The position numbers and the translations under genes are program-made. Below the pieces are notes generated by a model. It made no database searches. It had not been told where the DNA came from and was given only the letters and a program-made list of their open reading frames with translations. A DNA stretch of 64,000 nt from Janthinobacterium sp. PC23-8 (GTDB taxonomy: Bacteria; Pseudomonadota; Gammaproteobacteria; Burkholderiales; Burkholderiaceae_D). Numbering within the stretch: position 1 is the stretch's first letter; the number at the start of each line of letters is the position of its first letter. The stretch is taken from assembly GCF_002250505.1 (NCBI RefSeq), contig NZ_NJGY01000003.1, positions 87,977 to 151,976 of the forward strand, given 5' to 3'. Shown one piece after another: positions 18,295-37,317 of this stretch.

Positions 18295-21200
18295 TTACCC
18301 AAAGTGAAATGATTGATCTGTCAGGCGATTGTCTTCCAGGCACTCCGGAATCCATGTCGACTGGGTCGATAAGTCCGTTTTGATCACGGAATAACCGAGT
18401 GCGTCGTCGCCAGCGTCGCTTGCTTCGTAGACAGACCAAACGAACAGGGCGCGTTTGCATAGACGGGAAGTGGGGGGCTCGCTGGCGGCTGCCGGTGGCG
18501 CGTCCAGCATGCACGTGTACATGCGTTCGGGCTGTGGCAGGCTGGCGTGTAGCACGCAAGCCGAGCGACCGGGGGCGATATCGATCAGCGAATACAAGGC
18601 GTCGGGCATCGGCAGCGAGGAAACCTTATCGATCGGGATCGCCAGGCGCGCCGGCGGCATCGCAACGTTGGCCAACAATTCCAGCAGGAGCGTGTCGCCG
18701 GGCGCCAGCCCGGTCCGGCCGCTCGACGCGCCGAGCAGCGACGGCAGCGGCAGCGCATAGGAAGTTGCCGCGTTCATGCCGATGCTGGCGTGGCGCTCGC
18801 TGGCCGGTTCGCCGACCACGAACAGCAATGCTTCTTCCACGCTGGCGTCGACGCCATGGCGGCGTACGCGGGCCGACAATGTCAGGCCGGGCGGCGCGGT
18901 GGACGCGGTCGCCGAAGGCATCGAGACCGTGGCGCGGATGACCAGGGATTCGGACGGCGTGGCGCCCGCGCGATCGGCCCATAGCGTGATCTCTGCGCGC
19001 TGGTCATCCGCGCAACTGACGACGCTGATGCCACGGGCGCTGCTGAGCGCCGCGTCATAGGCCGGATCGGCGAACAGGACGGTGATGCGGCGCACCGGCA
19101 TCGGGTAGCCCTCGCCAGCAAACGGCGGAAACGCCAGCGCGGCGCGCCGCAGCCCGGCGCTTTCCAGTGTCGGTTTTCCAGGATCGGGGGCAGTCCAGCC
19201 CTGCGAACAATAGCTCACCTCGAGTACACAGGCATGTGGATCGGCCAAATAGGGCGTGCCTGGCGCCGGCAGCAACAACAGTCGGTTTCCCGGGGCGGGA
19301 ATGGCATGCGCCTCCTGCGCGGCGGTTGGGGCGACGGCAAAGCTGACCAGCTCGACGGACCCGCCGGCATGGCGGATTCTGGCGCGCGCCTTGCTGGTGA
19401 AGGTCTGGAAGACGAAATCGGCCGGCGCGGCGTGCGCGATGCCGGCGCGGTTGAACACGAAGCACGTGAGCGTGGTCGCGCCGCTCCACAACGGGCGCTG
19501 GCCGGCCGCAGGCGTGGCCATGCCGTCCGGCAGCGGATTGCCGAGGAAGACGTACCAGGCGGACAGGCCATCGGCCTGCGGGTCGTCGAAAATCAATTCC
19601 CAGGCACCGTCAATGACGGTGCATGAGGTCTCGGGTTTGCCGTAGAAACCGACGGTGCGGCGCCACTGCTCCGGGCCGCCCGCGTTCGGTGGCAGCGCGG
19701 CGGGCCGAGGCAAGCGCATGCTGCGTGTTTCGGCTGGGCCGGCCAGCGCGCTGGCGGCCCAGTCATCGGCCAGCGATAGCAGCACGCGCCCGCCGCGCTC
19801 GGCCAGCGTGCCCGCGCGTTCGCCGACGTCGATGCAGTCAAGCAGCGGCGGCAGGCAGGACTGCCAGTAACTCTCGGGCGGCAGTGCAGGCTCCATGCGC
19901 AGCAGGGCCGCGCGTACGCCCGCTTCACCGGGTGCGACCGGCAAGACGCTGGTGGCGGCGTCAACTTCGCGCGGCGCGGTGTCTTCGTCTGCTTCATCGC
20001 TGATTTCAAAGACACTGCGTTCCCATTCATCCAACCAGACCGTGGGTCTGGCTGTCGATGCGGCGCCGACTGCTGGAGCGCTGATCGCGGCGCGTGCGCC
20101 TGCCAGGCGAGGCGGGCGGATGCGTCCAACAATGGCGGCCAAGCCGTCGGCGCCGGCCTGGAATGGTTGACGTGCCTCCATGTCGATCGCCATCGCGCGT
20201 TTCAGTCCGGTCAGTGCTGCCGGTTCGGGCCAAGTGCGGCGGCCGTCAGTGCGGGCCAGCTTGATGGGGCGCAATGGGCGCGTGTGTCGGGTCAGCGGCT
20301 CGTGGCCCGGCGCCGGCGGCACGACCAGTGCGAATTTGACCCGCCCGCCATGCAGTCTGCGGCGGATCAGCGCCGCCGGCGCGTTCACTTGCGTCAGCGC
20401 CCATGCCCAGCGCTCGCGGTCGCTGCCGGCCGCGAAGGTGGGCGTCAGCGCCATTGCCCGCAGGTGGTGCGCACCGGCGATGATCATGTCGAGGTCTATG
20501 GACCGCAGGGCGGCATCGGCATTGGCGGCAGCTGGGTCGACGACGTGCGGCGCCGCCGTCACGACGGTGCGCACATCGATGTTAAATGGCGCGCTGCCCG
20601 TCAGACGTACCAGTACGCTGTGCACCTCGACCGGCCGCTCGGTCGCGGCGCTGATGGCCAAGTCTGCGACGGCGCGCGCTGCCACCCCGTCCGTCGTCGG
20701 TTTGCCGAGCCGTTGATGCAGCAGGGCCAGCATGACCGAGGCGCGCGGAAACGGATGTGGCCACGGTTCTGGAAAAACGCTGTCGCCCGGTCGTTGTAGT
20801 TGTTCGACGTGCCATCCCAGCTCGCCGCCGTCGCCGTTCCACCCAGCCATCAATGCCTGGCCCGACAGCGCGTGGGCCGGCAGCGCGTCGCATGCGTGGC
20901 GCACCGTTAAGGCGACCGGCAGACTCATCAAGCCACCTGCGGCCAGAGCGGTGTCCGCATCGAGGCGCACGGGCGTCGGCAGCAGGTCGTGGCGCGACAT
21001 CCTGAAAGGCGGTGGGTGCACGACGGTCAATGCTGCGGTCAGCGTCGGCGCGGCACCGCCGTCGCCAAGCGCGCCGATGAATGGCAGATGCAGCGACAGA
21101 TAGCCGGCGCCGTGGCCGGCGTCGGGCGCCTCGTCGATGCGGTACAACACGCTCATTCCGCCCAATACGATCCAGTCCCCGCCATTCGCCGTCGCCAGCG

Positions 21201-24200
21201 CTTCAAACACATGCGGCACGAAGACGCCGGCGAAGGCTGCACCGACCTTGCGCACGCCCGCATACGGAAAGGCGGCATGCGCGTTGCTTTTGTTGCCGAG
21301 GTAGGAAGGCGTGAAGCTGTATTGCTGCGCCTTGTCGTTGACGGCTTGCGCCAGCGTGGGCGCGGCCCACAATTGCAGCGCTTGCAAGCAATGTATTTTC
21401 CGCACGGCCCCGTCCGGCCAGGTCAGCGTGTGGGTCGCTTCTACCAGCCAGCTAACGGCCGGCAGCGCCTGGTCGACCGCAGGTATCACGCCGGCTGGCG
21501 AGCGGGCCGCCAGTTGCACACCGGCGATACGATGATCGGACAGCGCAAAGATGACATCGTGGCATACCCGATAATCGACATCGAACCGGACGTCAGTGCC
21601 ATCGCTCTCCGGGGCCAGCGCCGGGAGCGTCAGATCGGGCCATGGGATCAGGCAGGCAAGCGCCAGGTCGCCGTCGAAACGCAATGCGTCGTACGCGCCG
21701 GTGGCGTCGGTGGTGAGCTGGTGCGACACGCACAGAGCGCCGATGTCGAACATCAGTTCCAGATAGCAAGCGCCGATGCGCCAGTCCTCGCCCAGCGCCA
21801 GGGTCAGGGCGCCGCCCGTAAACGTGGCGTCGGCATGCGCAAAGACCGTCACCGCGCTGGTCGGCGCTTCGCCGTCCCATGCGATGCTCAGGCCGCGCCG
21901 CGAGGTGTCCGGCAGCGTGGTGCCGGCGGGTAGCGCGTTGCCAAACCAGTTCAGCAACGTGCGCACGCGGTGTTCGGCGTCCTTGCCCTGCCAGGTTTCG
22001 TCTAACGTGAGCGCTACGGCGTCGCGCAGCGTGGCGGCAACATTGATGGCGACTACGCGCCTGGCGCGCAGATCGACTGTCAGCGCTTGCAGCGCCATGC
22101 ACATCGCGGGCGCATCGGGAGGCGGCCCGGACAGCGTGGCGAGCGTCTCACCAGGCGCCAAATCGAGCGCCACCGTCAGCGGCGCGCCGAAACAGCGCGC
22201 ATCAAGTGCGATCGCGGTCGGGCTGAGCCGGCCCGTCGGGGCGTCGTAGGCAAGCGCCGCCGACAGCCAGGGTACGCCGTCGAGTACGCCGATCCCGTCC
22301 TCGACGGGCGCCAGCTTCCAGGCGCAGCGGCCTCCCGGCACGGTGACGGCGTGCAGCGCCAATCCCGCGCCATCGGCGAGCAGCGTGAGTTCCACGCGGT
22401 TGCGGGCGTCGTCGTTGTACCCTGCCTGGCCCAGCGTCAGCGTCCCCTCCAGCACGACGCGGCTGACCCGGTCGGCGATATCGTCGTATTCCACGCTGGT
22501 CAGCGCCGCCGGCGAGAACCACAGCAATGCGCTCACTGGCCAGGCCTCGGTGCTCGCCGCGCCACTGGCGGCCAGCACCCAGCTCCAGCTGCGCGCCAGC
22601 GGCGCCAGCCTGGGCTCGTGCGGTTCGTCGGCACGCCACACGCGCTGGCCGTCGGCCTGGCGCAGCGGCAGATCGGTCAGTGCCAGCGTCCAGGTGACGT
22701 CGGTGTCGTGCAGCGGAGCGATCGGCAACGGTGTCGCCGTGCTGAACAGGCATACCGGATCGTTGGCGGTGCCGCCTTCGATCCGCATCGGGCGCAGCGC
22801 CGGCCCTTGTGCGGGCAGCGTGCCCCACCCGACACCGCGGCCATCGATGACCGTGCCGTCCGTATCGCGCTCGGCGATACTCCAGCCGGCCAGCGCTGGA
22901 ACGCCGGCGCCGCTGGCGATGGCTACCGTGGTGTCGTCATCGATCACCAGATGGCCCGACGGTCCGCTGAGCAGCGCATTGCCGCAGGCATCCCAACGCC
23001 ATGCCGGCGTTGTCTGGCTGAGCTGGACACTGCCCAGACTGAACGGTTTTATGCTGACCGCGAGATCGACGTGCGCGCTGGCGCCCCAATGGCGCGGTGC
23101 GAGCAGGTGGCTGGTGACGACGGGTACGTCGGTTTGCGGTGCCGCTGGCGCGAACATGATGCTTTGCTGCGCCTGTACGGCCAGCCGCGCGTCATGGTGT
23201 TGCGCGACCATGGTGGCGAGGGCCCGACGCGTGACGGCGGTCGGGTAGCCTGGTCCCGCTGCATCGGTCTGAGGCGGAGCGCGGCCGGAGACCGGACCTG
23301 GCACCTCGGCCAGTGCCAGCGCCTCGTCGCCGATCGGCAGGCTGTAGCTGCCACCGGCCAGGTAAAGATCGGGGCGCAGCGGTCGCAGCGTGATGCCCGG
23401 CAAGGAGAGCACGACAAGATCGCGTGCCGCCGGATCGGTGCCGGCCGGCGCCACGGTGAATTGTCCTGTAGCCTGGTGCAGCAAAGTGGGCGCGAACGTG
23501 GCGACGCCCGAGAGCTGCAGCTCGGTGGTGGCGCCGTCGAACGGTGTCAGGCCGCGGCTCGCGTGCGGGCGCGGCGATCGCAGATCTGCGCGCGTGCCCG
23601 GCATGGCCGTGATCGCCGGCATGCTGGTGTGGCGGCACCAGATCCGCTGCGTGGCTGGTCCGGCGTCCGGCGCGAGCAACGCCGGGCGGATGGTCAGCAG
23701 TATGCCGTCGGCCAAGGATGGCCGTCGCGATGCGCGCTGGCTTTCTCCCGGTGCGGCTGCGTCCCAGCCGGCGCCGAAGGCCGGCGCGTGCAATGCCAGG
23801 CCGTCGCACATAAATGGCGCCGTGGCCGCGTCGGCGACATCGACGTTGCGCAGCACGAGGTCGAACATGCCATCGGGCCGGTCGTCGAATCGTGGCAGCG
23901 CGTCGTGCTGGTCGGGCGCGCGGTTGGACAGCCACGCCAGGCCGCGCAACTCGATCGCCATGGCGTCAAGCTTGATCTCCACTGCGGCGAGGGACGGCGT
24001 GGCGGTGGCGGCGATGGTCCAGGACAGCCAATAGCGTTCCGGCGCGTCCAGGCGCACGCTCCATGGCGCCTCATTGGGGACAGCTACGCTGGCATGCAAT
24101 TGCTGGCGCCGCGTGCCGATCAGCACACTGCCGCTGGCGTGTCGCGCGCGCACGCTGCGGGCCATCGATGGCGGCGTGGCGGCCGACGCGCTGAACGGCA

Positions 24201-25350
24201 ATTCAAGCCATCCCTGTGCGGTTTTCATGAAGCCGATCGGCGGCGCGCCGGCTTCGGGCGTGGTCAGGGCCGCCAGTTGCGACGCCACCTGGGCTGGCGC
24301 ATGGCTCAGGTGCAGGGCGCCGGGAAAGCTGATCGATTCGCGGGCCGGCTCGCCGCCCAGGTAGCGGTAATGGATGTCGCCCGCCGGCTCGCCATCCCAG
24401 GCGGTAATCGTCAGCGTGGTGCCGTGACGGACGATGCGGCTGTCAGAGGGCGTCAGGCGCAGTACCTGTTCCGGGCCGAGCATCTGGCTTTCGGTGGGCT
24501 GGTCGGCCATCGTCGCTGTCAACAGGCCGCGCGGCAAAATCATGCTGGTCCAATCGGGTGCGAGCTTGCCGTTCGCATTTTCGACAGGCCATGCCAGCGC
24601 CGGCAGCACCGTGCCGACCTCGAACAGCAGGCGCGCCCAGGCATTGTGGCGCGTATCGTCCGCATGGCGTTGCAGGCTGCGCCAGACGGCTTGCCAGCGC
24701 GCTGTGGCGATGGCGTCCTGGCGCTCCGGCAGCAGGGTCAACGACAGCAGCCTATCCTGTGCGGTCAGTCGCACGCGCGTGTCGATGTCGTCGCTGTTGT
24801 CCGGCGGCGTGATGGCCATCGTGCAAACCAGCCCATGCCGGTCGAGTTCGACGCTGCTGCCGGGCACCATACCCGGCAGCAGCGCGACGAGATTCGCCGG
24901 CTCCTCGATCGTCAGGCAGCCCTCCGCCAGGCGATAGGCCGGCACGTTGATTTCATCGCGCAGCGCTTCTTCCGCCGGCCGGTCTGGTTGCTCGGCGAGC
25001 GGGGCGAGCCAGACACGCTGTTCGTCCTGCAAGCTGATCGTGACATGATGGCCGCACACGTCCAGAGCAAAATCCGCGCCATCCTGCGACGAGCGGACGA
25101 ACAGTTCGATCAGCAGCGGGTCGGCAAACGACCGGCTGTGGCCGCCGTCCGCCACCGGCTGCATGGCGTTGCGCAACCACAGCGCGCGCAGACTTTGGCT
25201 GCCTGGCGTGGCGCCGTCGCTGGCTCCTGGATTGTCGGGAACGCGTTGACTACTGGCGTCGAGCCGCCATATCCGGCTGTCGGCGTCGGCCTGGCTGGAG
25301 ATGCTGACGCGGCGCAGGCTGGTCCAGGAAGCGGCGGGTGCTGTGGCCAT
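18295..25350 (-). CDS. Giant protein B (2351 aa), unknown function
   Basis: A single unbroken frame of 2351 codons starts at an ATG with an AAGGA site 6 nt upstream, 28 bp after the stop of giant gene A. I recognise no family. There is no signal peptide, lipobox, membrane helix, Walker motif or RHS/YD repeat. The chain reads as alternating hydrophobic beta-strands with Pro/Ala/Thr-rich turns (for example LTISLRD-like LVVLSLPGITLRPLRPDLYLAGG), with scattered Trp and Cys. A Pro/Ala/Arg-rich link near residues 1720-1800 separates a more compact C-terminal part. Style and composition match giant A, so the two probably act together. Codon use and GC look like the neighbours. Frame intactness over 7 kb argues for selection. 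Confidence 0.85.
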   Translation of the reverse strand: MATAPAASWTSLRRVSISSQADADSRIWRLDASSQRVPDNPGASDGATPGSQSLRALWLRNAMQPVADGGHSRSFADPLLIELFVRSSQDGADFALDVCGHHVTISLQDEQRVWLAPLAEQPDRPAEEALRDEINVPAYRLAEGCLTIEEPANLVALLPGMVPGSSVELDRHGLVCTMAITPPDNSDDIDTRVRLTAQDRLLSLTLLPERQDAIATARWQAVWRSLQRHADDTRHNAWARLLFEVGTVLPALAWPVENANGKLAPDWTSMILPRGLLTATMADQPTESQMLGPEQVLRLTPSDSRIVRHGTTLTITAWDGEPAGDIHYRYLGGEPARESISFPGALHLSHAPAQVASQLAALTTPEAGAPPIGFMKTAQGWLELPFSASAATPPSMARSVRARHASGSVLIGTRRQQLHASVAVPNEAPWSVRLDAPERYWLSWTIAATATPSLAAVEIKLDAMAIELRGLAWLSNRAPDQHDALPRFDDRPDGMFDLVLRNVDVADAATAPFMCDGLALHAPAFGAGWDAAAPGESQRASRRPSLADGILLTIRPALLAPDAGPATQRIWCRHTSMPAITAMPGTRADLRSPRPHASRGLTPFDGATTELQLSGVATFAPTLLHQATGQFTVAPAGTDPAARDLVVLSLPGITLRPLRPDLYLAGGSYSLPIGDEALALAEVPGPVSGRAPPQTDAAGPGYPTAVTRRALATMVAQHHDARLAVQAQQSIMFAPAAPQTDVPVVTSHLLAPRHWGASAHVDLAVSIKPFSLGSVQLSQTTPAWRWDACGNALLSGPSGHLVIDDDTTVAIASGAGVPALAGWSIAERDTDGTVIDGRGVGWGTLPAQGPALRPMRIEGGTANDPVCLFSTATPLPIAPLHDTDVTWTLALTDLPLRQADGQRVWRADEPHEPRLAPLARSWSWVLAASGAASTEAWPVSALLWFSPAALTSVEYDDIADRVSRVVLEGTLTLGQAGYNDDARNRVELTLLADGAGLALHAVTVPGGRCAWKLAPVEDGIGVLDGVPWLSAALAYDAPTGRLSPTAIALDARCFGAPLTVALDLAPGETLATLSGPPPDAPAMCMALQALTVDLRARRVVAINVAATLRDAVALTLDETWQGKDAEHRVRTLLNWFGNALPAGTTLPDTSRRGLSIAWDGEAPTSAVTVFAHADATFTGGALTLALGEDWRIGACYLELMFDIGALCVSHQLTTDATGAYDALRFDGDLALACLIPWPDLTLPALAPESDGTDVRFDVDYRVCHDVIFALSDHRIAGVQLAARSPAGVIPAVDQALPAVSWLVEATHTLTWPDGAVRKIHCLQALQLWAAPTLAQAVNDKAQQYSFTPSYLGNKSNAHAAFPYAGVRKVGAAFAGVFVPHVFEALATANGGDWIVLGGMSVLYRIDEAPDAGHGAGYLSLHLPFIGALGDGGAAPTLTAALTVVHPPPFRMSRHDLLPTPVRLDADTALAAGGLMSLPVALTVRHACDALPAHALSGQALMAGWNGDGGELGWHVEQLQRPGDSVFPEPWPHPFPRASVMLALLHQRLGKPTTDGVAARAVADLAISAATERPVEVHSVLVRLTGSAPFNIDVRTVVTAAPHVVDPAAANADAALRSIDLDMIIAGAHHLRAMALTPTFAAGSDRERWAWALTQVNAPAALIRRRLHGGRVKFALVVPPAPGHEPLTRHTRPLRPIKLARTDGRRTWPEPAALTGLKRAMAIDMEARQPFQAGADGLAAIVGRIRPPRLAGARAAISAPAVGAASTARPTVWLDEWERSVFEISDEADEDTAPREVDAATSVLPVAPGEAGVRAALLRMEPALPPESYWQSCLPPLLDCIDVGERAGTLAERGGRVLLSLADDWAASALAGPAETRSMRLPRPAALPPNAGGPEQWRRTVGFYGKPETSCTVIDGAWELIFDDPQADGLSAWYVFLGNPLPDGMATPAAGQRPLWSGATTLTCFVFNRAGIAHAAPADFVFQTFTSKARARIRHAGGSVELVSFAVAPTAAQEAHAIPAPGNRLLLLPAPGTPYLADPHACVLEVSYCSQGWTAPDPGKPTLESAGLRRAALAFPPFAGEGYPMPVRRITVLFADPAYDAALSSARGISVVSCADDQRAEITLWADRAGATPSESLVIRATVSMPSATASTAPPGLTLSARVRRHGVDASVEEALLFVVGEPASERHASIGMNAATSYALPLPSLLGASSGRTGLAPGDTLLLELLANVAMPPARLAIPIDKVSSLPMPDALYSLIDIAPGRSACVLHASLPQPERMYTCMLDAPPAAASEPPTSRLCKRALFVWSVYEASDAGDDALGYSVIKTDLSTQSTWIPECLEDNRLTDQSFHFG

Positions 25351-25378
25351 GGTAATTCCTTCGCTTTCAGATGATGTT

Positions 25379-28300
25379 TTATGTCAAGGTGATCGGCGGC
25401 AGTGACAGCGGCACCGCGTCGCCGCGCGTGGCGCGCAGACGAATGCACATGCCGCCCAGCGCGCGCTCGCGCTGGCGTTGCCTGAGCGCGGTGAGATAGC
25501 CTTGCAACACCGGATCAGCGTGCGCCTGTTGCATTGCCTGCTGGAACTCCACATCCGTCATCAATTCCGATATCAGCATGCACGGCGATGGCGCATTGTC
25601 GTCGGTCGCCGGACTTAGCGTCAGTGGTGCACCGCAGGCGGGCAGCGGCGCGCCGCTCCACACCGGTAACGTGGCGCGGTGCGCGATGCTGCCGGGCCAC
25701 GGCCAGTGATGTGCCGCGATCTGCGTCAGGGCCGGCGTATAGAAAGCGGCGATCATGTCCGTCAGTCCGGTCGATGAGGCGAACAACTGCGCGACCCACG
25801 CCTGTAATGCTGCGGCCAGCGCGTCCCATGCTGGCTCGTCGACAGGCTGGGTGAACGCGAGCGTTTGCCACTCCCCGAACACGGGGAAGACCGTGCGCAG
25901 GCACTCGAGTGCCGCACGCATCGGCTCGCCGACGACGGCCAGGACGTTCCAGAGTTGCGGTACGCCGAAAACCAAAGTATCGGGGACGGCGGCGCCGCCC
26001 AGTTTCTTCAGCAAGACCTCGATCCAGTGGCCGTTCCAGCCGCCGGGTACGCGCAGATGGTCGTTACGCAGGTAGTCGGCGCCTGCCAGCGCCGCGCGCA
26101 ACGTGGCGAGGCCATCGTTCGTCAGTGGCAGCACGGCGCTGTACGGCGCCAGGGTGATTCGCAACGGATAGTTGCCAGTGCTGTCTGGCGTCAGCGAGCA
26201 GTCGCAGGCGACGCTCCAGTCGCCGGCCAGTTGCAGCACCTGATAGACTGCTTGCGGTTCGGCGTCGGCGGCGCAAGAGCGCTGCGGCGCGCGCGCGATG
26301 CGCGCCAGCGGCATGATCGTTTTGCGTGGCCGCAGCGGCGTTTTTGCGCCTTCCAGAGCGAGGTCATAGACCACCAGTGGATCGGGAAGGTTGGCGAGCG
26401 GCCCGGCCCAGTGCTCTGCGGTACGCTCGTCGGTGGTGTCGCGGTTGCGCAGCGCGCCCATCGTCAGCGCGATGCAATGGGCGCGCGCCGCCGCCGGGGT
26501 GCGCTCGACGACGTCGAGCCGGATGTCCGGCTGGTCATGATACCGGGTCCACGGATGCCCCGCGACCAGTGTCAGCTTGCCGTCGTCAATGCTGACCAGG
26601 CGTACGGGTGCATCGCTCAGGCGCGCGGTCGTCACCTCCGACACCGCGCGACCGGCGGCCACCGAGACGGCGATGGTGTGCAGGTACCAGTGCGGCAGGT
26701 GGCTGAGCATGCGCGTTTTCGAACGCACCGGCAGCGCGATACCCTGGCCTCGCAGATATCGCAGCACCGTGTCGACACCGGTCGGCGCGGCATCGTTGCC
26801 GAAAGGGGCCGCAATGCGCCTGGGCGGCTCGGCGAGGGCATCGGCCTGGCCGGCGCGCAGGCACCAGTCGACATCGCTGACCTGTAACAGGTGGCTGGAG
26901 CGGCTGCCGGCGAAGGAGAGTCGCCGCGCCACGCCGGTATTGGCTTTTGACAGGCGCAGCTCGGGATGGTCGGGCAGTACCGCGACCAGTTGCGCGCCGT
27001 CCTGCTTGCCCAGCCGGATGAACCCCTCGGCGCGTAGCTGCTGCGCGTCGTACGCTGGCGGGCTGGCCGCCGACGTCGCGTCTTGCTCGCGTTCGTAGAC
27101 GGGCGGGTCGTCGTCCTTCCACCACCAGACGGTGTCGCCGATGCGCCCGGCCGGCACCACAGCCGGTGGCGTGAGTGGCGCGGTGCGCCGCAGCGTGCAT
27201 TTGGCGTGGGCCGGCATGCCGACGACGGCGTCGGTCGAGAACGCCATGTGCGCCGCACGCCGCGTTGTGAAGACATCGCCATGGCCGGCCGCCGTCAGCA
27301 GCTTTTCATAACGCCATTGTGGCAGGATGCTCCATTCGCGGCGGTGCGCATAGCCGTCCGCCTCCATCATGTTCAACGACAAGCAGCCGTCGGCATCCTG
27401 CGCCAGCCGCACCGGTTCTCCCCGGTCCGGCGCCGCCCAGGCCAATTGCGGCCAGTCGATGTCGATCCCGCAGTCGGGCGCATAGTCGAAGAAGCGTGCG
27501 GTCCAGCCGGCCCACTGTTGGGCCAGCAGCGCCTTGGCGGCGGGATCAGTGGCCAGGTTGGGCAGGCGCAGCGCACGCGCGACCGTTGTCAGGAATTTGG
27601 CGACGCTCGCTTGCAAAGGCGCATCGAAGTCGGTGCGCTCAGGCGTCAACCAGCCGTTCCAGGTCGGAAATTGGCCGAAGGCGTCGACTCCGAGCAGATT
27701 GTCGGGATCATCCTGCGCCGGTGTCATGGCGATGCCGGGAAGGTTGTCCGCTAAGCCGGGCACATCGGTTCCCAGGCTCGGCGCGCGCAAGACGACGGTG
27801 TGCCCGATCCGCTTGGTTTTTGCCGTCTCGGCGACCAGCACGTCGTTCAGTGATTGATGGTCCAGAGAATAGATGAGGCCCGACTCGATCACCTTGGCGA
27901 CGCAGCCGGGTTGGTGGGTGCTGGATGCTTCTCCCGCCGAGATGCGCCGGACACGGTATGCGAGGTGTTTGATGATGGCCGGACGCAGCGAGATGCGCAG
28001 CATCGCCAGCGCCGGCGCGGCGCCGGTGCCGTCGCCGGCATCGTCGCGGGCGTCGAAGCGCAGGCGCCGCGTCAACCCGTCCGGTTGCAGCAGCACTTCA
28101 ACAAACAGCCGCCGCATGATCTGCTTTTTCAAGGTCGCGTCGGTGGCGGCCAGTTCCGGATACAGGCCGGCTGCACTCACGTCCCGCAGGGCCGCATCCA
28201 GCTGGTGCTGAAGTTGCAAGGCATCGATAAAACTGTCGCGTTCCGTATCGAACAGGCGCACCGTTACGCCCAGGCCGAGGCGATCAAGGATGGCCCACCC

Positions 28301-31300
28301 GCGCGGATCGGCGCCGGGATCGGCTGCGCTCAACAGATCCTCCAGGGTGCGCGCGTCGAGCACTGGCGCGGGCCGACGGTCCAGCTCGTACAGCTGGCGC
28401 GCGCCGGCGTCGGCGCCCGGCCGGCGCATGCGCGCCAGCACCGCCTCGATCATCGGATGCAGTTCGCGATCGAACGGCATCGGCACCACCAGCGGCGCCA
28501 GCGCGAAGGGCTTGTCGCTGCCGTCGGCGCCGGTGTAGGTCCAGCCAGGCGTCAACTGGAAGGCCCAGCCGGTATGCCCGGCGTCGGTCGGCGGCACCCA
28601 GCGCAAGCCTCGCAATGCGGTGCGCAGGTCCCTGGCCAGCGACGTCGTGTCCGTGACGCTGCCGCTATCGTTGCGCAAGGTCTTCGGGCCTTGATACGTC
28701 AACCATGCGGTCCCGGCGTCCAGCGTCCATGTCGCTTGGCAGCCGGCCCCGGAGGCGCAGGTGAACGCGATATCGTTGACGGCGATGTCGTCCTGGAGCA
28801 TCGCCAGCACGATACGGTCGGGCGGGCCGTTTACGAGCAAGCCCATGATCAGCTCGGAACTGGGTTCGGGCAGCAATTCCACGCGCAGCAACGGCGCCGG
28901 CCAGTCGAGATAGGATTCGGCGTCCGAATACCAGGTACCGCCGGCCACGCGCTTGGCCCGGTCGCTCGGATAGTGCGCCTGCCATTTGCGCGGATCGCCC
29001 ACCGCTGCCGGTGTCAGGGCCGCCTGATCGGGCGCGAGCAGACTGGCCGACAGCAGCGCGACGGCGTCCGGGCGACCAGGCGCGTCGCGGTCACGCATGA
29101 AAATTTCGAAACCGGCGCGCAGGCGGTAGCGCGCCGCCGTCGTCGCGTCCAGTCCGGACGGGAGCACGTTCCAGCGCAATGTGGTCAGCGCCGCGAACGC
29201 CGGGTCGGGCACATTGTCGCCAGGTTGCGGGCCGGGCGTGAACTGGCAGCGTGGCGGCAGATCGAGCCGGGCGGCCCGCCCGCCCTGTGCCGACAGGTCT
29301 TGCCAGACGACGGCGGCGAGCACCGGGTCGTCCGGTTGCGGCAGGCGTACCAGTTCCAGCGCATCGACGCGGCTCAGACGGCGCGCGGCGCCGTCGGCGC
29401 GGACGATGGCCACCGTCAACTCGAACGGCAGCAGCACCGAGTTGGCGACGTCGCGCTCGTTGTCGCGCCATACCGCCTGGACGTACAACCGGAACGCGCG
29501 GGGCGTCGTGGTGTCGCGCAGGGCATGCATCAGCTCGCCGAGGCGGGCAGGATTGCCCAGCTTGTCCAGTTCCGCCGTCTCGTCGCCGTTGCCATGAGGG
29601 AACGACAGGCGCTCGCCGACCGCAAAATCGACAGTCAGGTCGCCGGCCTGCACGGTGCGCTCGGCCGCCAGGCCGGCGCCCAGCGGGCGGGCGCTTTCGC
29701 CGTCGGCGCCATAAAAGCCTGCGGGGACGATCGCCTCGCCGCGCAGCACCACGCGCCAGAAGCGCTGGTGGCGGCCGGCATGGCTGTCGTCAGGCTGGTC
29801 GCCCGCTTCGATGCGCGCTTCAAGCTTGATGGCCTGTGTGGCAGGGTCGATCACCAGCACGGCGATGGCGCGTTTGATCGGCACCACGACCGGCTGGCCG
29901 CGGCGTTCGATGATGAAGTCGCTGCAAGGGACGCCGCGCGTGCCGCTGACGCACACTGGCACCACGCTGTAGCGCACGACGACATCAAAGGCCGGATTCG
30001 ATAGCGCGGCACGCTCGGCCGGGCTGATGTCGGCAAATTCATCGGTGTACTGCCATGGATTGCGCTGCACGACGCGCCGTGCCGCGCCGCCGGCGGGCGC
30101 GTTGTCGTACACCAGCAGGTCGGCGCGCTTGGCAGTGATGGGCGCGGCGTCGGGGCCTGGCTTGCCGTCGATCTCCAGCCAGCGCGTCACTTCGTAGTGC
30201 TGGACATAGTGTTCTGGTTCGATCTGGCTGGCCGGCCAGACCAGGTCCCAGTCCAGATGCACCTTGTTGTCTTCGAACGCGACGCGGATGGCGTCGAAGC
30301 GCGGCGTCCGATAAGCGAAGGTGCGCTCCGGAGGGTTGAATATCCGGCATGTGACGGGTTGCGACAACTGCTCAAGGATACGTTTGCGCAGGCGCGCGCC
30401 GTCGCAGCACGCGAGCATGGCGCGCGGCACCAGCAGCGTCAGGCCTAGGCGGGCGATGTGGGCTCGCGGCGGCACCACCCCGTCGGCGCCCAGCTGGAAC
30501 AAGTCGGAGATGAAGGCTTGCAGCAGAAAGTCGCGCGATTCGTGGCAGCGGCGGTCAGCTGGCGTGACTGCGATCAGCGCCTGGTTGTAGGCGCGCTCCT
30601 GGCTGGCGTAGCTGGCCTGCTCGCCGACGGGTGCCTGCCTGGCCACAGCGCCGGGCACGCCCATCGCGGCCCGCGCCAACGGTTCGCGGTAGCGCTTCTG
30701 CGCGCTAGTGTCGACATCGGCGAGTCTGGCGGCGTGGGTGCGAAAAGCGCTGAAGAACAGCCCGCTCAGCTGCGCCAGGCCGGTATGGTCGGCCGGCACG
30801 CCCGGTTGCGCGGCGCCGCCGTTCGGGGCGGTCGACGCGGCAAACGGCAACGTGGCCTTCCATTCGACGCGGGTGGGCAGCACGGTTTCGCCAGTGGCCG
30901 AGCGTTGCTCCTGCCAGCGGTTGTCGGAGAAAATGTAGAACGCATGCGCGGCGGCGTCGGCGAGCAGCGTGATTTCATGATCCGGCCCGGCGTCAACCGG
31001 AGCCACGCCGCCGGCGGGCGGCTCAGGCGGCGCTGCGTAGAACGATCCGCGTTGTGCCGCCGCGTCGGCGGCGGGCGCCGCCTCGAGCGGCAGGAAGCTC
31101 AGGTAGACCCAGTCGGTGGTGTTGACCATGTGTCCCGGCGGCAGTGCGGCGGGAACGACCGTGAGCGCCGTGAGGACGATATGGAAGTCGCCTTCGGCGA
31201 TGTCGACGCTGGTATCGTGGTCGTTCCTGGGCGCGATATCGGCGGGCAGCGGATCCTCGTGTGGCTGCGCGGCGGCCGGGCCATTGTTGTCGGGTACGCC

Positions 31301-34300
31301 CGGTGGCGGCGCGGTGACGGCGTGGCGCGCTTCCAGGCGCTCGCGGCCCGCGTCGGCGGCGGCCTGGTTGCGGGCGTCCTGTTGCGGCAGCGATGGCGTG
31401 GTGGCCGGCAGGTCGAGTGTCAGGCCCAGATCCATGAAGCGGCCGACCCGCTGGGCGGCCTGGTCGACTACGCCGGGAGAGATGCCCAGGCCGACTCCGA
31501 CGCTGAGCGTGCAACCGAAGATCGACACGACCAGCTGGGCGCGCATGCGCGCGCCCATGCTGGCGTCGCCGAGCAATGCCATTTCGCCCACCACCGAAAT
31601 TTGCAGTGTCATCGCGAACGCGATGTGGATGGTGATTTTGCATAGCCATGCGTCGATCTCCAGCCAGGCGCAGATGCGGAACTGAATGTTGACGTTCAGC
31701 GCATACAGGGCGTAGTAGAGCGAATTGGCGACCCTGCGCGCGTCGAGGTAGCCGATCAGACGCGCGGCGATGGTCGCCAGCACCGACGCGCTGACGGCGA
31801 CGCCGACACAGCCGGCGTCGAGCCGGCCTTCGAGCGCGAAATCGAGTTGGCCTTCCAGGTTCAAGGCGGCCAGCACTGCGTCGTCGCAGACCCGGAAGAT
31901 CGCGCCGCCGGCCACGCTCAGATGCACGCCGGCGATGTTCTTGCTCCATCGGATGCGGTTCGGCCACCCGAACTCCGCGTGCAACAGGCCGGGTCGCATA
32001 TAGATGATGGCCTCGTAGTCGATATCGGTGAGGGCGCTGCAGAACTCGGCCGGCAGGCCCAGGCGCGGGCCGACCTCGGCGCCGCGATTGCTTTTGAGTC
32101 GCGCCAGGAATTCACAACGCGACGCCGATAGCAGCACGTAGCCGTACATCGCCTGCTTGCCGCTCAGTGGGTTCTGACCAACCTGGCGGCCCTTGTCCCA
32201 GTCGCGGTAGTTGTACCCCAGCCACAGTGTGGCCTTCATGAAAAAGCTGTCCTCGCGCAGCGCCGCCACCGCTTCAAGGATAAAGACGTTGGGCAGATAT
32301 TCCTCCTCGTCGGGTTTCCAGGACAGCGGCTCGGCTTGCGACGATGCGCTGCTCATGGTCAGCAGGATGCGCGCGGCGACGGTCAGCTTCATGTCGTTGG
32401 CGTCGGTCGGCAAGGTCCAGTGCGCCAGCTTGGACAATTCACCCGATGAGAGCCCCAGCGTGTCAAGCGATTTGATCAGTGCGGGCAGGCTGTCGGCGGC
32501 GTCGATCGCGACAAATTCGACCAGCGTGAAGCCGTAGCCCATGCCCAGCCCAGCCTCGCGCAGGTAGATCGGTACGGGGCCGACCTGGAAATAGTAACTG
32601 AGGTGCTGCGCTTCGAGGAACACGAACCATGCCCGCACCGGACCGCGCGCCGCTGTGGCCTGCACTTCGACAAAACCAAACGCGGCGGCGACGGCCGGCA
32701 GGCCCTGAATCGCCACCCGACCTTGTCCCATGAAGCCCTTGGCGGCAATCGCCGGCACTTTGCTCACGCTTTGCAGCAAGGCGTTGCCAACGCTGCCGTC
32801 GACGGCCACCACCAGGCCATCGATTTCGACACTGGCGCCGAAGCGCAGTGCCACGCCCAGTCCTTCGCAACGCAGGCGCGGCAGCCACTGGCCGGCGGCC
32901 GGCACGGCCAGGTGCAACAGATGACAGTCGATCTCCGCGCTGACCACGTCGCCCGCTTCGGCAAAAAAGATCTGGCCGCCAACCAGCAGTGCTGGCGGAT
33001 GGTCGTCGAATAGCTGGTCATGCGGCATGAAGCCGATGCAGCGCACCTGGAATCGGAACAGTTCGAATACCCTGGCCTCGAGCGGCGTGTCGAGCGCGAC
33101 GATGAACGACAGGTTCAGTCGTTCCAGCGCGCGTCGTACCACTTCGGAGGCGCCGGCGATCGGACAATCGGTGAAGCGCAATTCGAGGCCGGCCAGTTTG
33201 CCCAGCAGGCTGCCGGATAACTCGGCTGCTTGCGGCTTGAATGTGGCCCCGCCGCTGACAAAGGCGCAAAAGTGCAGGTTGCCAGCGTCCTCGAAGACGC
33301 GCACCGACACGGCGCTGAGCGTCAGCATGAAATGGGTGTTCTCGCAGCGCACAGGCTGATCCTTGCGCGCCAGTTCCATGCTGCCGTCGAGCAGTCCGAT
33401 CGTGCCGTCCGTGCGTGCGCCAAAGGCCAGATGCAGGGCCACATCCACATTGCCGAGCAACGCCGGTGGCAACTGACCGGTGGCGTCCAGGTTGAAATCG
33501 GTGATGCGCCCGCCGCTGACGGCGATCCTGGCGGCCTGGAAAGTGAACTCGACGTCCAGCCCATTGAGCTTGATGGTGCTCGGCCCGTCGAGCACGGCCT
33601 CAAGATCGATGCCTGCGTTGTGCATGACGAACCGACCGACCCGAAAGTCGAGCGGCGGACCATCGCCGCTCAGCTGCGAAAATGCCAGCCGCAGCTGCCA
33701 GCCGTCGCCGAGCATCAGGCGGGTATCGCCGCCGCGCAGGTCGAGTACCAGCCGGTCGCCCGGCGTGGCTCCGGGTACCTGCAAGAAGGTCGCCTGCATG
33801 CCGAGCAGGTCGAAGCTGTGGTCCGGGTTGAATCCGAGCGCGCCGGCCTTGACGTTGAGGGTCAGGCTGCGTGCAGCCAGTTCCAGCACCAAGGTGGACT
33901 TGATGGCGGTGTCGAGCACTTTCACGGTGACGCCGGCCTCGGTGCTGAAGACGCCATGCTCAAGCGTGATTTGCCGGTCCGTGATCTGATCGATCTGCAT
34001 GTATTGTTTCAGTTGGCCGACAAGCCCCTGGACGCCAGTGCCCGGGGCCTGGTTCCTGGGGGCCGCCAGGAATGGCAGGATGCGATGCCCGATGTCGGAG
34101 AAGGATGGAAATGTCGCGCGCACCGCTGCCACGCCGGACAGCTCGACCAGCTGGCAAGGCGCGAACGTCACAGACGCCTGGCCGAGTGCCGGCAAAGGGT
34201 CGTGCAGCGCCTGCAGGAACACCGGTTCGCCGTTGCGGATGCCAAATGGGATCACGCTCAGGCGCGCTGCGGTGCCGGCCGGCGCGGTCGTTTGCGCGAC

Positions 34301-36013
34301 GCCGATGGTAATCAATCGGTCGGTATCGGCGCTGCTTGTGGATTGCTGTTGGTCAATGGCGCTGGCCGCGTGCTCGACATCGCCGCCGCCGAACCACAAG
34401 TCGGTTCCCAGCGTGAGTATGTCGACGCCAGCGCCGGCGCCGACGGTGGCGATCAGATATGCGTCGCGCGCGCCGGCGCGCAGGTCGAACAGCAGCGCCA
34501 GATCGGCCCCGGCCGGCGTGCGCAGGAAGCAGGCGGACGTGTCGAACACGACGTCGCTGGTGTTGTTGACACTGCGACACATGCACACCAGTACCTGCTG
34601 CAACGCGGCGCTGCGGCTGTCCAGTACCAGCGTGATGTCGAGCGCGGTCAGCGCGTCCCTGCCGCTGCGCAGCAGCGTGCACAGCGCGCGCAGTCCGGCC
34701 GCGACGACAGCGGCCAGGCCGGTGGCGCCGCTCGCGATGGCTGCCAGCAATTCGCCGACGATGTCTGCCAGCGGTGCCATGTCGGGCACCTGGGTGAACG
34801 GCAAGCGCAGTGACACGCTGGCCGGCAATGCGGCGTTTTTCAGCAAGCCGCCAAGCAATTGCATCGGCGTGGGCGCCAACAGCGTCACGCTCGTCTGCAC
34901 AGGGATAGGTTCGCCATGGAAGGTAACGTGATCGACAAAATTGTCGTTCTCGAACGGTTGGACGATGTCGACGGTGATGAGATGGTCGGGTGCGCTGGCC
35001 GGCGCCATGCTGCACGTGTAGCGCAGGGCGCCGTGCACCATCAGAGTTGGGGTGGTCGTCAGCTCAAGGCGCAGTTCGCCTGCGCCTCGTTGATAGCCAA
35101 TGCCGGTGAGCGGCGCCGACAGCGGGGTCTGGTTGGGGGCTGCTTCCCATGTCAGTCGCAACGGGTCCGGCCACAGGCCGGTGATCGCCAGGGTGCCGTT
35201 CTCATACACCAGCGCGGGCGACCCGAGGTCGAATGACGCCGTGGCGTCGCTGACCTTGATCGCCGCGTCCGTGACCGTGATGGAGACCGTCACCGCGCCG
35301 GTGTCCGCGTGCAAGGTAACTGAAGAATGGATCGGGCCGTGGATCACGGTGAAGGGAATGCCGGGCACGGCAGGCAGGTGAAAGTCGAACGGTGCATCTG
35401 GGTTGCAAGCGGCCGTTTGCCAGTCGAAGCCGGCAAATTGCAGCGCGGGAAATTGAAAGCCGAGTTCGGGCAAGCGCAGTGCCATGGTCGGTATCGCGCC
35501 TTGCGCGTCGATGCGCATTTGCCAGGCCAGGCGCGCGCGCAAGGCCGAGCCAAGGATATTGGCGTCGCACTCGCCAGCGATGTCGAGTTGCATTTCCAAT
35601 GCCGCCGACGCCATCGATCCGCCAAGACAGGCGCCGATGTCGCACGTGACGCGAGCGACGATGGTTGCGACGCCAGCCGGGAAAATCGTGGCGCCGCAGA
35701 AACGCTGCTCTGCTTCGAGCACGAAGGCCGCATGCGATAGCGCGTTGACGGTGGCGCGCCAGACATCTTCGGTCAGCGAGTTGAATGCTTGCTGTTGCGT
35801 GCTGATCAGTTGTCGCAATTGCGCCAGCGTCATCAGGTGATCGTCGACCACCAGCATCGGATCGAGTGGAATCGGTGGTGCCAGAGTCAGACTGAGGGCC
35901 GTTTCGGGCGCTTGAGCGTAGCGGACGTGCAACCGCACGATCGTGTGATCGGCCCCAATGTCGGCCTCGAGGCTGGGCGACATGGTGTTCTGGTTCGAGG
36001 GAATGATGATCAC
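25379..36013 (-). CDS. Giant protein A (about 3544 aa), unknown; possible DUF6603-like core
   Basis: This is an intact frame of more than 3500 codons. I choose GTG 36013, which has GGAG 5 nt upstream; ATG 35983 (MSPSLEADIGADHT) is the main alternative, and an ATG at 36151 has no ribosome site. No signal peptide, membrane anchor or enzyme motif was seen. Residues about 1-1100 are long runs of amphipathic beta-strands (such as LNGLDVEFTFQAARIAVSGG). Residues about 1105-1515 (FGFVEVQATAARGPVRAWF, LGMGYGFTLVEFVAID, later GCTLSVGVGLGIS) recall DUF6603-type giant proteins, from memory only. A Pro/Ala linker follows at about 1541-1601. Residues about 1900-1950 look Fn3-like (VHLDWDLVWP, YEVTRWLEIDG). 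The last 1200 residues are unassigned. It is upstream of and probably co-transcribed with giant gene B. Confidence 0.85.
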   Translation of the reverse strand: MIIIPSNQNTMSPSLEADIGADHTIVRLHVRYAQAPETALSLTLAPPIPLDPMLVVDDHLMTLAQLRQLISTQQQAFNSLTEDVWRATVNALSHAAFVLEAEQRFCGATIFPAGVATIVARVTCDIGACLGGSMASAALEMQLDIAGECDANILGSALRARLAWQMRIDAQGAIPTMALRLPELGFQFPALQFAGFDWQTAACNPDAPFDFHLPAVPGIPFTVIHGPIHSSVTLHADTGAVTVSITVTDAAIKVSDATASFDLGSPALVYENGTLAITGLWPDPLRLTWEAAPNQTPLSAPLTGIGYQRGAGELRLELTTTPTLMVHGALRYTCSMAPASAPDHLITVDIVQPFENDNFVDHVTFHGEPIPVQTSVTLLAPTPMQLLGGLLKNAALPASVSLRLPFTQVPDMAPLADIVGELLAAIASGATGLAAVVAAGLRALCTLLRSGRDALTALDITLVLDSRSAALQQVLVCMCRSVNNTSDVVFDTSACFLRTPAGADLALLFDLRAGARDAYLIATVGAGAGVDILTLGTDLWFGGGDVEHAASAIDQQQSTSSADTDRLITIGVAQTTAPAGTAARLSVIPFGIRNGEPVFLQALHDPLPALGQASVTFAPCQLVELSGVAAVRATFPSFSDIGHRILPFLAAPRNQAPGTGVQGLVGQLKQYMQIDQITDRQITLEHGVFSTEAGVTVKVLDTAIKSTLVLELAARSLTLNVKAGALGFNPDHSFDLLGMQATFLQVPGATPGDRLVLDLRGGDTRLMLGDGWQLRLAFSQLSGDGPPLDFRVGRFVMHNAGIDLEAVLDGPSTIKLNGLDVEFTFQAARIAVSGGRITDFNLDATGQLPPALLGNVDVALHLAFGARTDGTIGLLDGSMELARKDQPVRCENTHFMLTLSAVSVRVFEDAGNLHFCAFVSGGATFKPQAAELSGSLLGKLAGLELRFTDCPIAGASEVVRRALERLNLSFIVALDTPLEARVFELFRFQVRCIGFMPHDQLFDDHPPALLVGGQIFFAEAGDVVSAEIDCHLLHLAVPAAGQWLPRLRCEGLGVALRFGASVEIDGLVVAVDGSVGNALLQSVSKVPAIAAKGFMGQGRVAIQGLPAVAAAFGFVEVQATAARGPVRAWFVFLEAQHLSYYFQVGPVPIYLREAGLGMGYGFTLVEFVAIDAADSLPALIKSLDTLGLSSGELSKLAHWTLPTDANDMKLTVAARILLTMSSASSQAEPLSWKPDEEEYLPNVFILEAVAALREDSFFMKATLWLGYNYRDWDKGRQVGQNPLSGKQAMYGYVLLSASRCEFLARLKSNRGAEVGPRLGLPAEFCSALTDIDYEAIIYMRPGLLHAEFGWPNRIRWSKNIAGVHLSVAGGAIFRVCDDAVLAALNLEGQLDFALEGRLDAGCVGVAVSASVLATIAARLIGYLDARRVANSLYYALYALNVNIQFRICAWLEIDAWLCKITIHIAFAMTLQISVVGEMALLGDASMGARMRAQLVVSIFGCTLSVGVGLGISPGVVDQAAQRVGRFMDLGLTLDLPATTPSLPQQDARNQAAADAGRERLEARHAVTAPPPGVPDNNGPAAAQPHEDPLPADIAPRNDHDTSVDIAEGDFHIVLTALTVVPAALPPGHMVNTTDWVYLSFLPLEAAPAADAAAQRGSFYAAPPEPPAGGVAPVDAGPDHEITLLADAAAHAFYIFSDNRWQEQRSATGETVLPTRVEWKATLPFAASTAPNGGAAQPGVPADHTGLAQLSGLFFSAFRTHAARLADVDTSAQKRYREPLARAAMGVPGAVARQAPVGEQASYASQERAYNQALIAVTPADRRCHESRDFLLQAFISDLFQLGADGVVPPRAHIARLGLTLLVPRAMLACCDGARLRKRILEQLSQPVTCRIFNPPERTFAYRTPRFDAIRVAFEDNKVHLDWDLVWPASQIEPEHYVQHYEVTRWLEIDGKPGPDAAPITAKRADLLVYDNAPAGGAARRVVQRNPWQYTDEFADISPAERAALSNPAFDVVVRYSVVPVCVSGTRGVPCSDFIIERRGQPVVVPIKRAIAVLVIDPATQAIKLEARIEAGDQPDDSHAGRHQRFWRVVLRGEAIVPAGFYGADGESARPLGAGLAAERTVQAGDLTVDFAVGERLSFPHGNGDETAELDKLGNPARLGELMHALRDTTTPRAFRLYVQAVWRDNERDVANSVLLPFELTVAIVRADGAARRLSRVDALELVRLPQPDDPVLAAVVWQDLSAQGGRAARLDLPPRCQFTPGPQPGDNVPDPAFAALTTLRWNVLPSGLDATTAARYRLRAGFEIFMRDRDAPGRPDAVALLSASLLAPDQAALTPAAVGDPRKWQAHYPSDRAKRVAGGTWYSDAESYLDWPAPLLRVELLPEPSSELIMGLLVNGPPDRIVLAMLQDDIAVNDIAFTCASGAGCQATWTLDAGTAWLTYQGPKTLRNDSGSVTDTTSLARDLRTALRGLRWVPPTDAGHTGWAFQLTPGWTYTGADGSDKPFALAPLVVPMPFDRELHPMIEAVLARMRRPGADAGARQLYELDRRPAPVLDARTLEDLLSAADPGADPRGWAILDRLGLGVTVRLFDTERDSFIDALQLQHQLDAALRDVSAAGLYPELAATDATLKKQIMRRLFVEVLLQPDGLTRRLRFDARDDAGDGTGAAPALAMLRISLRPAIIKHLAYRVRRISAGEASSTHQPGCVAKVIESGLIYSLDHQSLNDVLVAETAKTKRIGHTVVLRAPSLGTDVPGLADNLPGIAMTPAQDDPDNLLGVDAFGQFPTWNGWLTPERTDFDAPLQASVAKFLTTVARALRLPNLATDPAAKALLAQQWAGWTARFFDYAPDCGIDIDWPQLAWAAPDRGEPVRLAQDADGCLSLNMMEADGYAHRREWSILPQWRYEKLLTAAGHGDVFTTRRAAHMAFSTDAVVGMPAHAKCTLRRTAPLTPPAVVPAGRIGDTVWWWKDDDPPVYEREQDATSAASPPAYDAQQLRAEGFIRLGKQDGAQLVAVLPDHPELRLSKANTGVARRLSFAGSRSSHLLQVSDVDWCLRAGQADALAEPPRRIAAPFGNDAAPTGVDTVLRYLRGQGIALPVRSKTRMLSHLPHWYLHTIAVSVAAGRAVSEVTTARLSDAPVRLVSIDDGKLTLVAGHPWTRYHDQPDIRLDVVERTPAAARAHCIALTMGALRNRDTTDERTAEHWAGPLANLPDPLVVYDLALEGAKTPLRPRKTIMPLARIARAPQRSCAADAEPQAVYQVLQLAGDWSVACDCSLTPDSTGNYPLRITLAPYSAVLPLTNDGLATLRAALAGADYLRNDHLRVPGGWNGHWIEVLLKKLGGAAVPDTLVFGVPQLWNVLAVVGEPMRAALECLRTVFPVFGEWQTLAFTQPVDEPAWDALAAALQAWVAQLFASSTGLTDMIAAFYTPALTQIAAHHWPWPGSIAHRATLPVWSGAPLPACGAPLTLSPATDDNAPSPCMLISELMTDVEFQQAMQQAHADPVLQGYLTALRQRQRERALGGMCIRLRATRGDAVPLSLPPITLT

Positions 36014-36271: not shown

Positions 36272-36739
36272 ATGGCCATTTCATTTGACGCGCTGCGCGA
36301 TCACTACCCGACCGATCCGAAAGCGGAACTGTTCGAGCGGATGGGCGGACAATGGCCTGCGCTGGTCGATGACCCGCTTTACGCGAACACGTGTTGCGTG
36401 CGCTTGTCGATCGCCCTCAAAGGCGCTGGCGTGGGCATTCCGGCGCAATACAAGGAAGCCATCGAAGGCGATGGCACCGCCATCGTGCTCAAGGTCAAGA
36501 CGATGGGCGAGTTGGTCACTGCGCTGCTCGGCAAGCCATATTGGGGTATGAGCAAGAATCCGGGGCAGCCGGTCGGCGCTGGCACAATACCGGCGCGCGC
36601 CGGCATTCTGGTCTATCACGTGGCGTGGAATGACGCGACCGGTCATTTTGATTTGTGGACCGGCAACGATTTCGTTGGCAACGGCAATTTTGGTGGCATC
36701 GCCGACGGCTTCAGTCTGGCATTCTGGAGTCTGGTGTAA
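36272..36739 (+). CDS. Tae4-like peptidoglycan amidase (T6SS effector family)
   Basis: The 155-residue protein fits the Tae4 family, NlpC/P60-like amidases that cut the D-Glu to mDAP bond in peptidoglycan and are delivered by T6SS. The catalytic cysteine motif is NTCCVRLSIAL (Cys41), the mid region IVLKVKTMGELVTALLGKP matches the family, and the histidine motif is GHFDLWTG (His125), with Asp133 as a candidate third residue. It ends LAFWSLV as family members do. It has no signal peptide, as expected for a T6SS cargo. The ATG follows a GGGGAG site. It is divergent from giant gene A and inside the tRNA-fMet bracket. No typical Tai4 immunity gene (small, with signal peptide) follows. Confidence 0.82.
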   Translation: MAISFDALRDHYPTDPKAELFERMGGQWPALVDDPLYANTCCVRLSIALKGAGVGIPAQYKEAIEGDGTAIVLKVKTMGELVTALLGKPYWGMSKNPGQPVGAGTIPARAGILVYHVAWNDATGHFDLWTGNDFVGNGNFGGIADGFSLAFWSLV

Positions 36740-37236: not shown

Positions 37237-37317
37237 ATTGGTTGCGGGGACAGGATTTGAACCTGTGACCTTCGGGTTATGAGCCCGACGAGCTGCCAGA
37301 CTGCTCCACCCCGCAGC
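37237..37317. repeat. 81-bp direct repeat, right copy (tRNA-fMet)
   Basis: This block is identical to 17916-17996. Recombination between the copies would remove 19.3 kb, including both giant genes, the amidase and the 82-residue gene, while leaving one intact tRNA. Confidence 0.9.
37239..37315 (-). tRNA. tRNA-fMet (CAT), copy 2
   Basis: It is identical to copy 1 over all 77 nt, including T1:A72 and the encoded CCA. Its own promoter is clear: TTGCGC, 17-bp spacer, TATAAT, about 7 nt before the tRNA. The different upstream sequence shows that the two copies do not share a promoter beyond the -10 box. Confidence 0.95.

Follow-up and report, generated by a model that had tools for sequence, protein, structure and literature searches.

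What does a bacterium gain from two adjacent genes that together take up 17.7 kb of coding DNA and encode two proteins of no known family? The question is raised by a stretch of 64,000 nucleotides from Janthinobacterium sp. PC23-8 (contig NZ_NJGY01000003.1, positions 87,977 to 151,976), referred to here as the window, in which two giant genes, B and then A, follow each other on the minus strand (Table 1). Coding capacity on this scale is a high cost to the bacterium, and a preliminary description of the window, made from the sequence alone, had argued that such genes are kept only if they are useful. Here, we show that the giants form a conserved, rare and mobile pair of soil bacteria, that enzymes of several families lie beside it, and that these enzymes are exchanged next to near-identical giants. 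We tentatively suggest, as a quite possible reading with an inferred mechanism, that the pair is a mobile two-protein carrier for exchangeable, mostly wall-attacking effectors that is not tied to the type VI secretion system (T6SS).

Two giant genes without a known family

The preliminary description had reported two unbroken frames on one strand, 28 bp apart, and both were found where it placed them. B has two candidate starts, the GTG listed in Table 1 and an ATG at 36151, which yields a protein of 3590 aa. Homologues of A and B, with 20-41% identity over the full length, retain open frames, and dN/dS of close pairs was 0.17-0.27 in five comparisons of B and four of A. A and B are therefore real genes rather than chance frames, and the pair is under purifying selection, in agreement with the argument that it is maintained because it is useful.

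Neither giant could be assigned to a family, as had been anticipated. Pfam and NCBIfam gave no match to A or B, their sole listing (DUF4376, E 0.7) being noise, and revealed no known trafficking or repeat domain in the window proteins (RHS, filamentous haemagglutinin, PAAR and the like); PHROGs gave no match either, and profiles of the A and B families against PDB sequences produced no match, with one listing at E 0.23. A match of both proteins to a characterized family, named beforehand as the result that would overturn the proposal, was looked for in these searches and none was found; likewise, we found no published description of the pair in the part of the literature that was covered. A stretch of A had been thought to recall DUF6603 (PF20248), a family whose own function is unknown. 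Instead, a weak match appeared in the B family, in one of nine members (E 0.011), and the profile, with a gathering score of 27 bits, matched neither window protein. A PF20248 search that returned 0 of 50 genomes of the family is uninformative, because its control gave no match either.

By hydropathy, neither A nor B has a signal peptide, as had been proposed. In the same test, A has no transmembrane (TM)-like stretch and B shows four (at aa 418, 1398, 1457 and 1492), three of them within its beta-rich core. The two giants had also been described as similar to each other; BLASTP gave no support for this (best E 0.29), and we rejected the idea that they are mutual duplicates.

The pair is conserved, rare and mobile

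Including the window, 27 distinct B loci were collected, all of them proteobacterial by assignment except for a contig from IMG/VR. They were drawn from tblastn searches (11 plasmid records), a profile search (13 genome loci), the IMG/VR contig and the genomes G245 and G318; L014 is the same record as L007, and G594, which appears to be the genome of L019, was counted once. More loci were recovered with B or with the aligned B family as the query than with A, which as a single query matched one plasmid record and nothing in the genome contigs.

The survey for co-occurrence that the preliminary description had called for gave a uniform answer: A lies behind B on the same strand in all 25 assessable loci, after exclusion of L047, which is frame-broken, and L020, which ends inside B at a contig end. 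The spacing from B to A was -41 to +28 bp in 23 of the 25 and 246 and 289 bp in the other two, where the choice of start is uncertain. Decayed frames in relatives, raised earlier as a possible objection, were mostly absent. Both genes are broken in one of the 27 copies (L047, from Neorhizobium), with frame changes in both giants or poor sequencing as the cause, and A is divided into two frames in two others (L003 and L008). L022 is a fragment of B from the Pseudomonas rubra genome G1420. In this genome, B and A are intact on one contig, and a different contig holds a second B in broken pieces.

Conserved as it is, the pair is rare. It was present in 3 of 398 genomes of a phylum-wide sample, in 2 of 294 genomes of the window's own family and in 1 of 399 genomes of its own order, counts that include the window's genome where it belongs, and in 2 of 397 genomes of the order of G594. 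Mobility is evident from the replicons that carry it, eight of the 11 plasmid records being typed as conjugative, and from the site occupied in the window. There, two identical tRNA-Met genes bracket an insert of 19.2 kb that holds A, B, a gene for a Tae4-family peptidoglycan amidase and an 82-aa open reading frame (ORF); we saw no integrase in this insert. All 40 genomes of the genus match the right flank, and we retrieved the 11 best congener loci. In nine of these, both tRNA copies fall within the retrieved stretch, 134-144 bp apart in seven and about 660-675 bp apart in two. Left-flank similarity of 72-77% adjoins the first copy. The other two are L027, which stops at a contig edge, and L031, where the second copy lies about 1.5 kb off. 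A profile of the B core had no match among the 20 same-genus genomes listed.

By match coordinates, congeners (G296, G250 and G306 among them) differ in the distance between the tRNA-Met copies, which runs from about 0.14 kb up to 6 kb and is about 5-6 kb in G296 and G250. The gap may be an insertion hot spot, perhaps with other cargo.

Several other neighbourhoods were read by eye. A tyrosine-recombinase-like gene is found near the pair of G245, where patatin-like, HNH and ATPase genes also adjoin it (L038/L039); a patatin gene recurs in L019. On the IMG/VR contig (L025 with L058), the neighbours of the pair resemble phage tail genes, and a prophage may carry this copy. Phage records as such contained no match to B.

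Different enzymes are exchanged beside the giants

The preliminary description had drawn attention to a Tae4-like amidase near the giants. We confirmed it as a member of the Tae4 family, scoring 54.5 bits against PF14113 (cut-off 27), with no signal peptide by hydropathy. Its link to the giants was borne out in a broader form, in that many relatives have a different enzyme beside the pair. For each of the 26 non-broken pairs, we viewed the ORFs closest to it on either side (on one side only in L011 and L020) and found, in 14 of them, a gene within about 1.3 kb that carries a named domain at E 1e-3 or better. Besides the Tae4 of the window, these are a membrane-anchored Tse1-like amidase in L005 (PDB sequence match to Tse1 at E 7e-20; in Pfam only CHAP at 0.012), a Tlde1 in L016 (E 3.7e-6, below the family cut-off), YkuD proteins in L008, L009, L020 and L021 (L008 below the cut-off), an M23 protein in L007, Amidase_6 in L012 and, by 87% identity, in L019, C70 papain-like proteins in L003, L048 and L049, and a glutaminase in L018. 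None of 12 Pfam-matched standalone proteins had a signal-peptide-like start by a hydropathy cut-off, with L018 marginally below it; the 12 include the DUF3238 protein of L011, and L019 and L015 were outside this test.

As a control, we inspected three 50-kb stretches from three plasmids that carry the pair, with 122 annotated genes in all. None of the products read to us as a hydrolase of the wall, an L,D-transpeptidase or a protease of the papain-like type, and each of the same plasmids has one such enzyme annotated within two genes downstream of A. Because these plasmids had been picked for that annotation, the comparison is small and not blind.

Exchange is seen between L007 and L008, in which B is 97.5% identical and the two-TM protein encoded after A is 97% identical, while the gene that follows codes for M23 in L007 and for YkuD in L008. 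Similarly, a membrane anchor common to L005 and L021 (47% over 119 aa) is fused to the Tse1-like amidase in the former and to YkuD in the latter. Multi-TM proteins adjoin the giants in several loci. As a separate observation, a divergent protein of about 620 aa with several TM stretches, an N-terminal VWGET motif and no Pfam match is encoded in L012 (7156-8991); it lies upstream of B in L006 (split), L012, L015 and L019, and L022 has it upstream of its B fragment.

Variation was also found at the C-terminus of A. Most A proteins, that of the window included, stop shortly past or near a conserved C-terminal motif and have no additional tail domain. About 140 extra residues are present in L007, L008 and L013, about 110 in L009 and about 215 in G1420; L004, a close relative, has an A without a tail. 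The L009 tail corresponds to a separate gene in L013 (59%), and the L007 tail recurs in L013 both on A (73%) and as a separate gene (68%). This exchange with standalone genes recalls polymorphic toxins, since PMC3482391 describes C-terminal domains that recombine with standalone cassettes as their mark and counts NlpC-type wall enzymes among the toxin domains. In L013 extended by L051, a downstream gene (29281-29976 in joined coordinates) has a strongly lysine-rich, histone-like start fused to the domain that also forms the A tail.

Shape of B and A

Both giants had been described as amphipathic, beta-rich chains. This description suits the B core, in which strongly beta-amphipathic 10-residue windows start at 14.4% of positions compared with 4.0 +/- 1.3% in shuffles (z 8.3); the signal in A is weaker (z 2.6). 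An AlphaFold model of B residues 420-1619 (3590-aa numbering), built on 13 sequences, had a pLDDT of 67, rising to about 80-90 in much of model residues 870-1140, and is mostly beta, with strands of up to about 24 residues. The best PDB matches by Foldseek were mostly LptD and ApoB-100 (E about 1e-5 to 1e-4, TM-scores about 0.1). VIA-align gave Z 14.1 and an rmsd of 7.1 A over 262 residues for ApoB-100 and Z 10.6 and 5.5 A over 246 residues for LptDE, and porins score nearly as well (Z 10-13). The modelled core would fit an amphipathic sheet or groove, and these comparisons prove neither lipid binding nor a barrel. The model of A residues 340-1010 was unusable (pLDDT 47.7). The viral library of Foldseek gave weak matches only, to tail-fibre-like and unnamed proteins (TM about 0.1), from which we draw no inference.

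A possible toxin carrier and its alternatives

In the working model that we propose, the pair would supply the invariant component of a mobile antagonism system. The two giants would form a very large, beta-rich assembly independent of Sec, as a single particle, and this assembly would bring an enzyme, most often a peptidoglycan-attacking one that rides on it, to the envelope of another bacterium, presumably a competitor. The enzyme would be the exchangeable part: it would come from a neighbouring gene, as with Tae4 in the window, or be joined to a membrane anchor, and it might also form the C-terminal tail of A. Exit from the producer might occur by lysis or, where present, via accessory membrane proteins. 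The more far-reaching claim, that A and B represent an undescribed class of mobile toxin carrier that assembles without Sec or T6SS and is spread by plasmids and tRNA-site inserts, strikes us as somewhat unlikely. Polymorphic toxin systems, as described in PMC3482391, are a known parallel to a constant large part with variable C-terminal tails that also occur alone, as in the relatives L007, L008, L009 and L013. They differ in that the giants have no recognized trafficking domain or secretion system and number two constant proteins, that no immunity gene was found, that the variable enzyme is usually encoded separately, and that A of the window has no extra tail.

Several observations weigh against such a carrier. 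No immunity gene was identified beside the pair, and the physical link between enzyme and giants is inferred. The neighbours for the domain scans were picked by eye, so that the count of 14 in 26 is not unbiased, and the C70 proteins and the glutaminase, which make up 4 of the 14, are not known to act on the wall. Elsewhere the enzyme is less certain: the L010 candidate is weak (CHAP/NlpC; PDB 0.018, Pfam 0.094), L011 and L015 have DUF3238 alone (L015 just below the cut-off), those of L002, L017, L025, G318 and G1420 were read by eye from motifs without profile support, and none was found at four of the 26 loci (L004, L006, L013 and G245). Nothing useful came from PDB sequence searches with the P. 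rubra tail, the 293-aa gene of L025, the genes of L002 and L017 and the amidase of L012. No Pfam family matches the A tails of L007 and L009, and the P. rubra tail (L055:414-1208) matches only phrog_3108, a phage family of unknown function, at E 7e-12. Moreover, with a middling model of B and an unusable one of A, no structure shows a particle. The missing immunity gene does not exclude a weapon, because PMC12419801 describes other proteins that lack immunity genes, some of them large and equipped with wall enzymes, and presumes that they serve as weapons on unrelated organisms.

In the main alternative, the giants themselves would be the active product, and the enzymes and membrane proteins would let them out by breaching the wall of the producer, whether through lysis or through local editing. 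We consider this unlikely, though it is favoured by the multi-TM proteins beside the giants, the TM anchors fused to enzymes in L005 and L021 and the fact that no immunity genes were recognized. A giant product without a signal peptide and an accompanying wall enzyme, sometimes with a multi-TM neighbour, also match the pattern of the type 10 secretion system (T10SS; holin, endolysin and spanin) and the Tc toxins of Yersinia entomophaga in PMC10847048, and a muramidase that requires a wall edited by an L,D-transpeptidase, the export route of typhoid toxin by TtsA/YcbB in PMC6996933, would suit the YkuD loci. However, the giants have no Pfam match and thus none to Tc subunits, and the enzyme belongs to several unrelated families rather than being one conserved endolysin. 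No spanins were noticed, and in the insert of the window we found neither a spanin nor a holin-like gene; A, Tae4 and the 82-aa ORF are free of TM stretches by hydropathy. Exchange of enzymes beside near-identical giants is unexpected for a fixed step, and C70 proteins and glutaminases are not known as wall-opening enzymes; the exchange and the presence of non-wall enzymes are the reasons why we favour a cargo over a release function. In addition, Tae4, Tse1 and Tlde1 are known as T6SS attack effectors. A role in the envelope, akin to the lipid-handling pair of the preliminary description, in which B would act as an extended lipid-binding groove or sheet of amphipathic beta strands, with a shape like that of LptD, AsmA or ApoB, and the wall enzyme would make room for it, appears improbable. 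The beta amphipathicity of the B core and the Foldseek and VIA-align results point in this direction, as do the long amphipathic antiparallel strands that the model shares with LptD, ApoB-100 and repeating beta-groove lipid proteins. Yet the TM-scores of about 0.1 and the near-equal porins may reflect just long antiparallel strands; no sequence relation was found, A and B lack signal peptides, and patchy, mobile occurrence with exchange of enzymes would be odd for envelope upkeep.

Defence against phages or other elements, with the giants as a cytoplasmic structure and the enzyme killing the infected cell, would account for a patchy and mobile pair, and defence genes do lie near some loci: a ubiquitin-like cassette and Avs1c in L003, mad8/HerA-like and HmaC-like genes in L010 and L013, and AbiE in L005 and L048. 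An anti-phage structure had also been among the earlier suggestions; beyond these neighbours we found nothing direct in its favour, and we regard it as very unlikely. Such genes share the same mobile hot spots, so proximity proves little, and by Pfam neither giant contains a nuclease or sensor domain. PADLOC, applied to seven proteins (one of them a wrong-strand frame of the window; A, B and Tae4 were outside the scan), matched only the L010 and L013 genes, both of which lie about 2.8 kb upstream of B. Delivery of the giants, or of Tae4 alone, by the T6SS of the host had been suggested earlier and is highly unlikely in our assessment. Among the accessory enzymes, three are members of the T6SS peptidoglycan effector families Tae4, Tse1/Tae1 and Tlde1 or are similar to them, and the window's host has three genes for the sheath protein VipB, one of them within the window. 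In contrast to T6SS effectors in general, however, these enzymes adjoin a giant pair, and VipB was found in only 8 of 15 hosts, which makes the T6SS unlikely as a common carrier; as a general route it is not supported. Some of the seven hosts without a VipB match are drafts or metagenome-assembled genomes; the seven include G318, rated 100% complete, and G1418, apparently the same genome as G594, also rated 100% complete. The Tlde1-like enzyme of L016 itself lies in a VipB-negative host (G1415, a draft), and A, B, Tae4 and the 82-aa ORF have no VgrG, Hcp or PAAR family match.

Taken as a whole, the preliminary interpretation stood with respect to pairing, selection, the lack of a known family, the amphipathic beta core of B and the linked amidase, and was not supported with respect to the likeness of A and B and general delivery by the T6SS. 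The recurrence of the pair in distant proteobacteria, with its gene order kept and an exchangeable enzyme at its side, means that two hypothetical proteins can now be tested as a system. Were the proposed mobile carrier to prove correct, it would add a delivery route to the T6SS, contractile injection systems and Tc complexes; a release device would amount to an unusually variable T10SS-like step. Either reading offers a starting function for giant hypothetical proteins on rhizobial and other plasmids.

The insert and its surroundings

The features of the window are collected in Table 1. The 82-aa ORF directly downstream of the amidase gene has no Pfam or PHROGs match and no signal peptide by hydropathy; it is a possible partner or immunity gene.

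Table 1. Features in and around the insert (positions within the window)
Feature	Position	Strand	Remarks
VipA-VipB fusion	8182-10857	-	T6SS genes left of the insert
Sigma-54 activator	11618-12604		T6SS region 8182-12604, left of the insert
tRNA-Met (cat), left border of the insert	17918-17994	-	ARAGORN; identical to right copy
Giant gene A	18295-25350	-	2351 aa; open frame; 28 bp 3' of the B stop
Giant gene B	25379-36013	-	3544 aa from GTG at 36013; open frame; 26 other loci
Conserved beta-rich core of B	about aa 745-1625 (3590-aa numbering)		most conserved part; structure model
Tae4-family peptidoglycan amidase	36272-36739	+	155 aa; divergent from and upstream of B; PF14113, E 1.6e-14
82-aa ORF	36789-37037	+	directly downstream of the Tae4 amidase; from the sequence
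tRNA-Met (cat), right border of the insert	37239-37315	-	ARAGORN; congeners have both copies close together

Two further features of the window lie outside the insert. Near the tRNA site, at 12910-16586, a TonB receptor with an STN domain and a FecR gene resemble a cell-surface signalling set. On the other side, positions 45209-48244 encode a protein of 1011 aa with a C-terminal GGDEF diguanylate cyclase domain.
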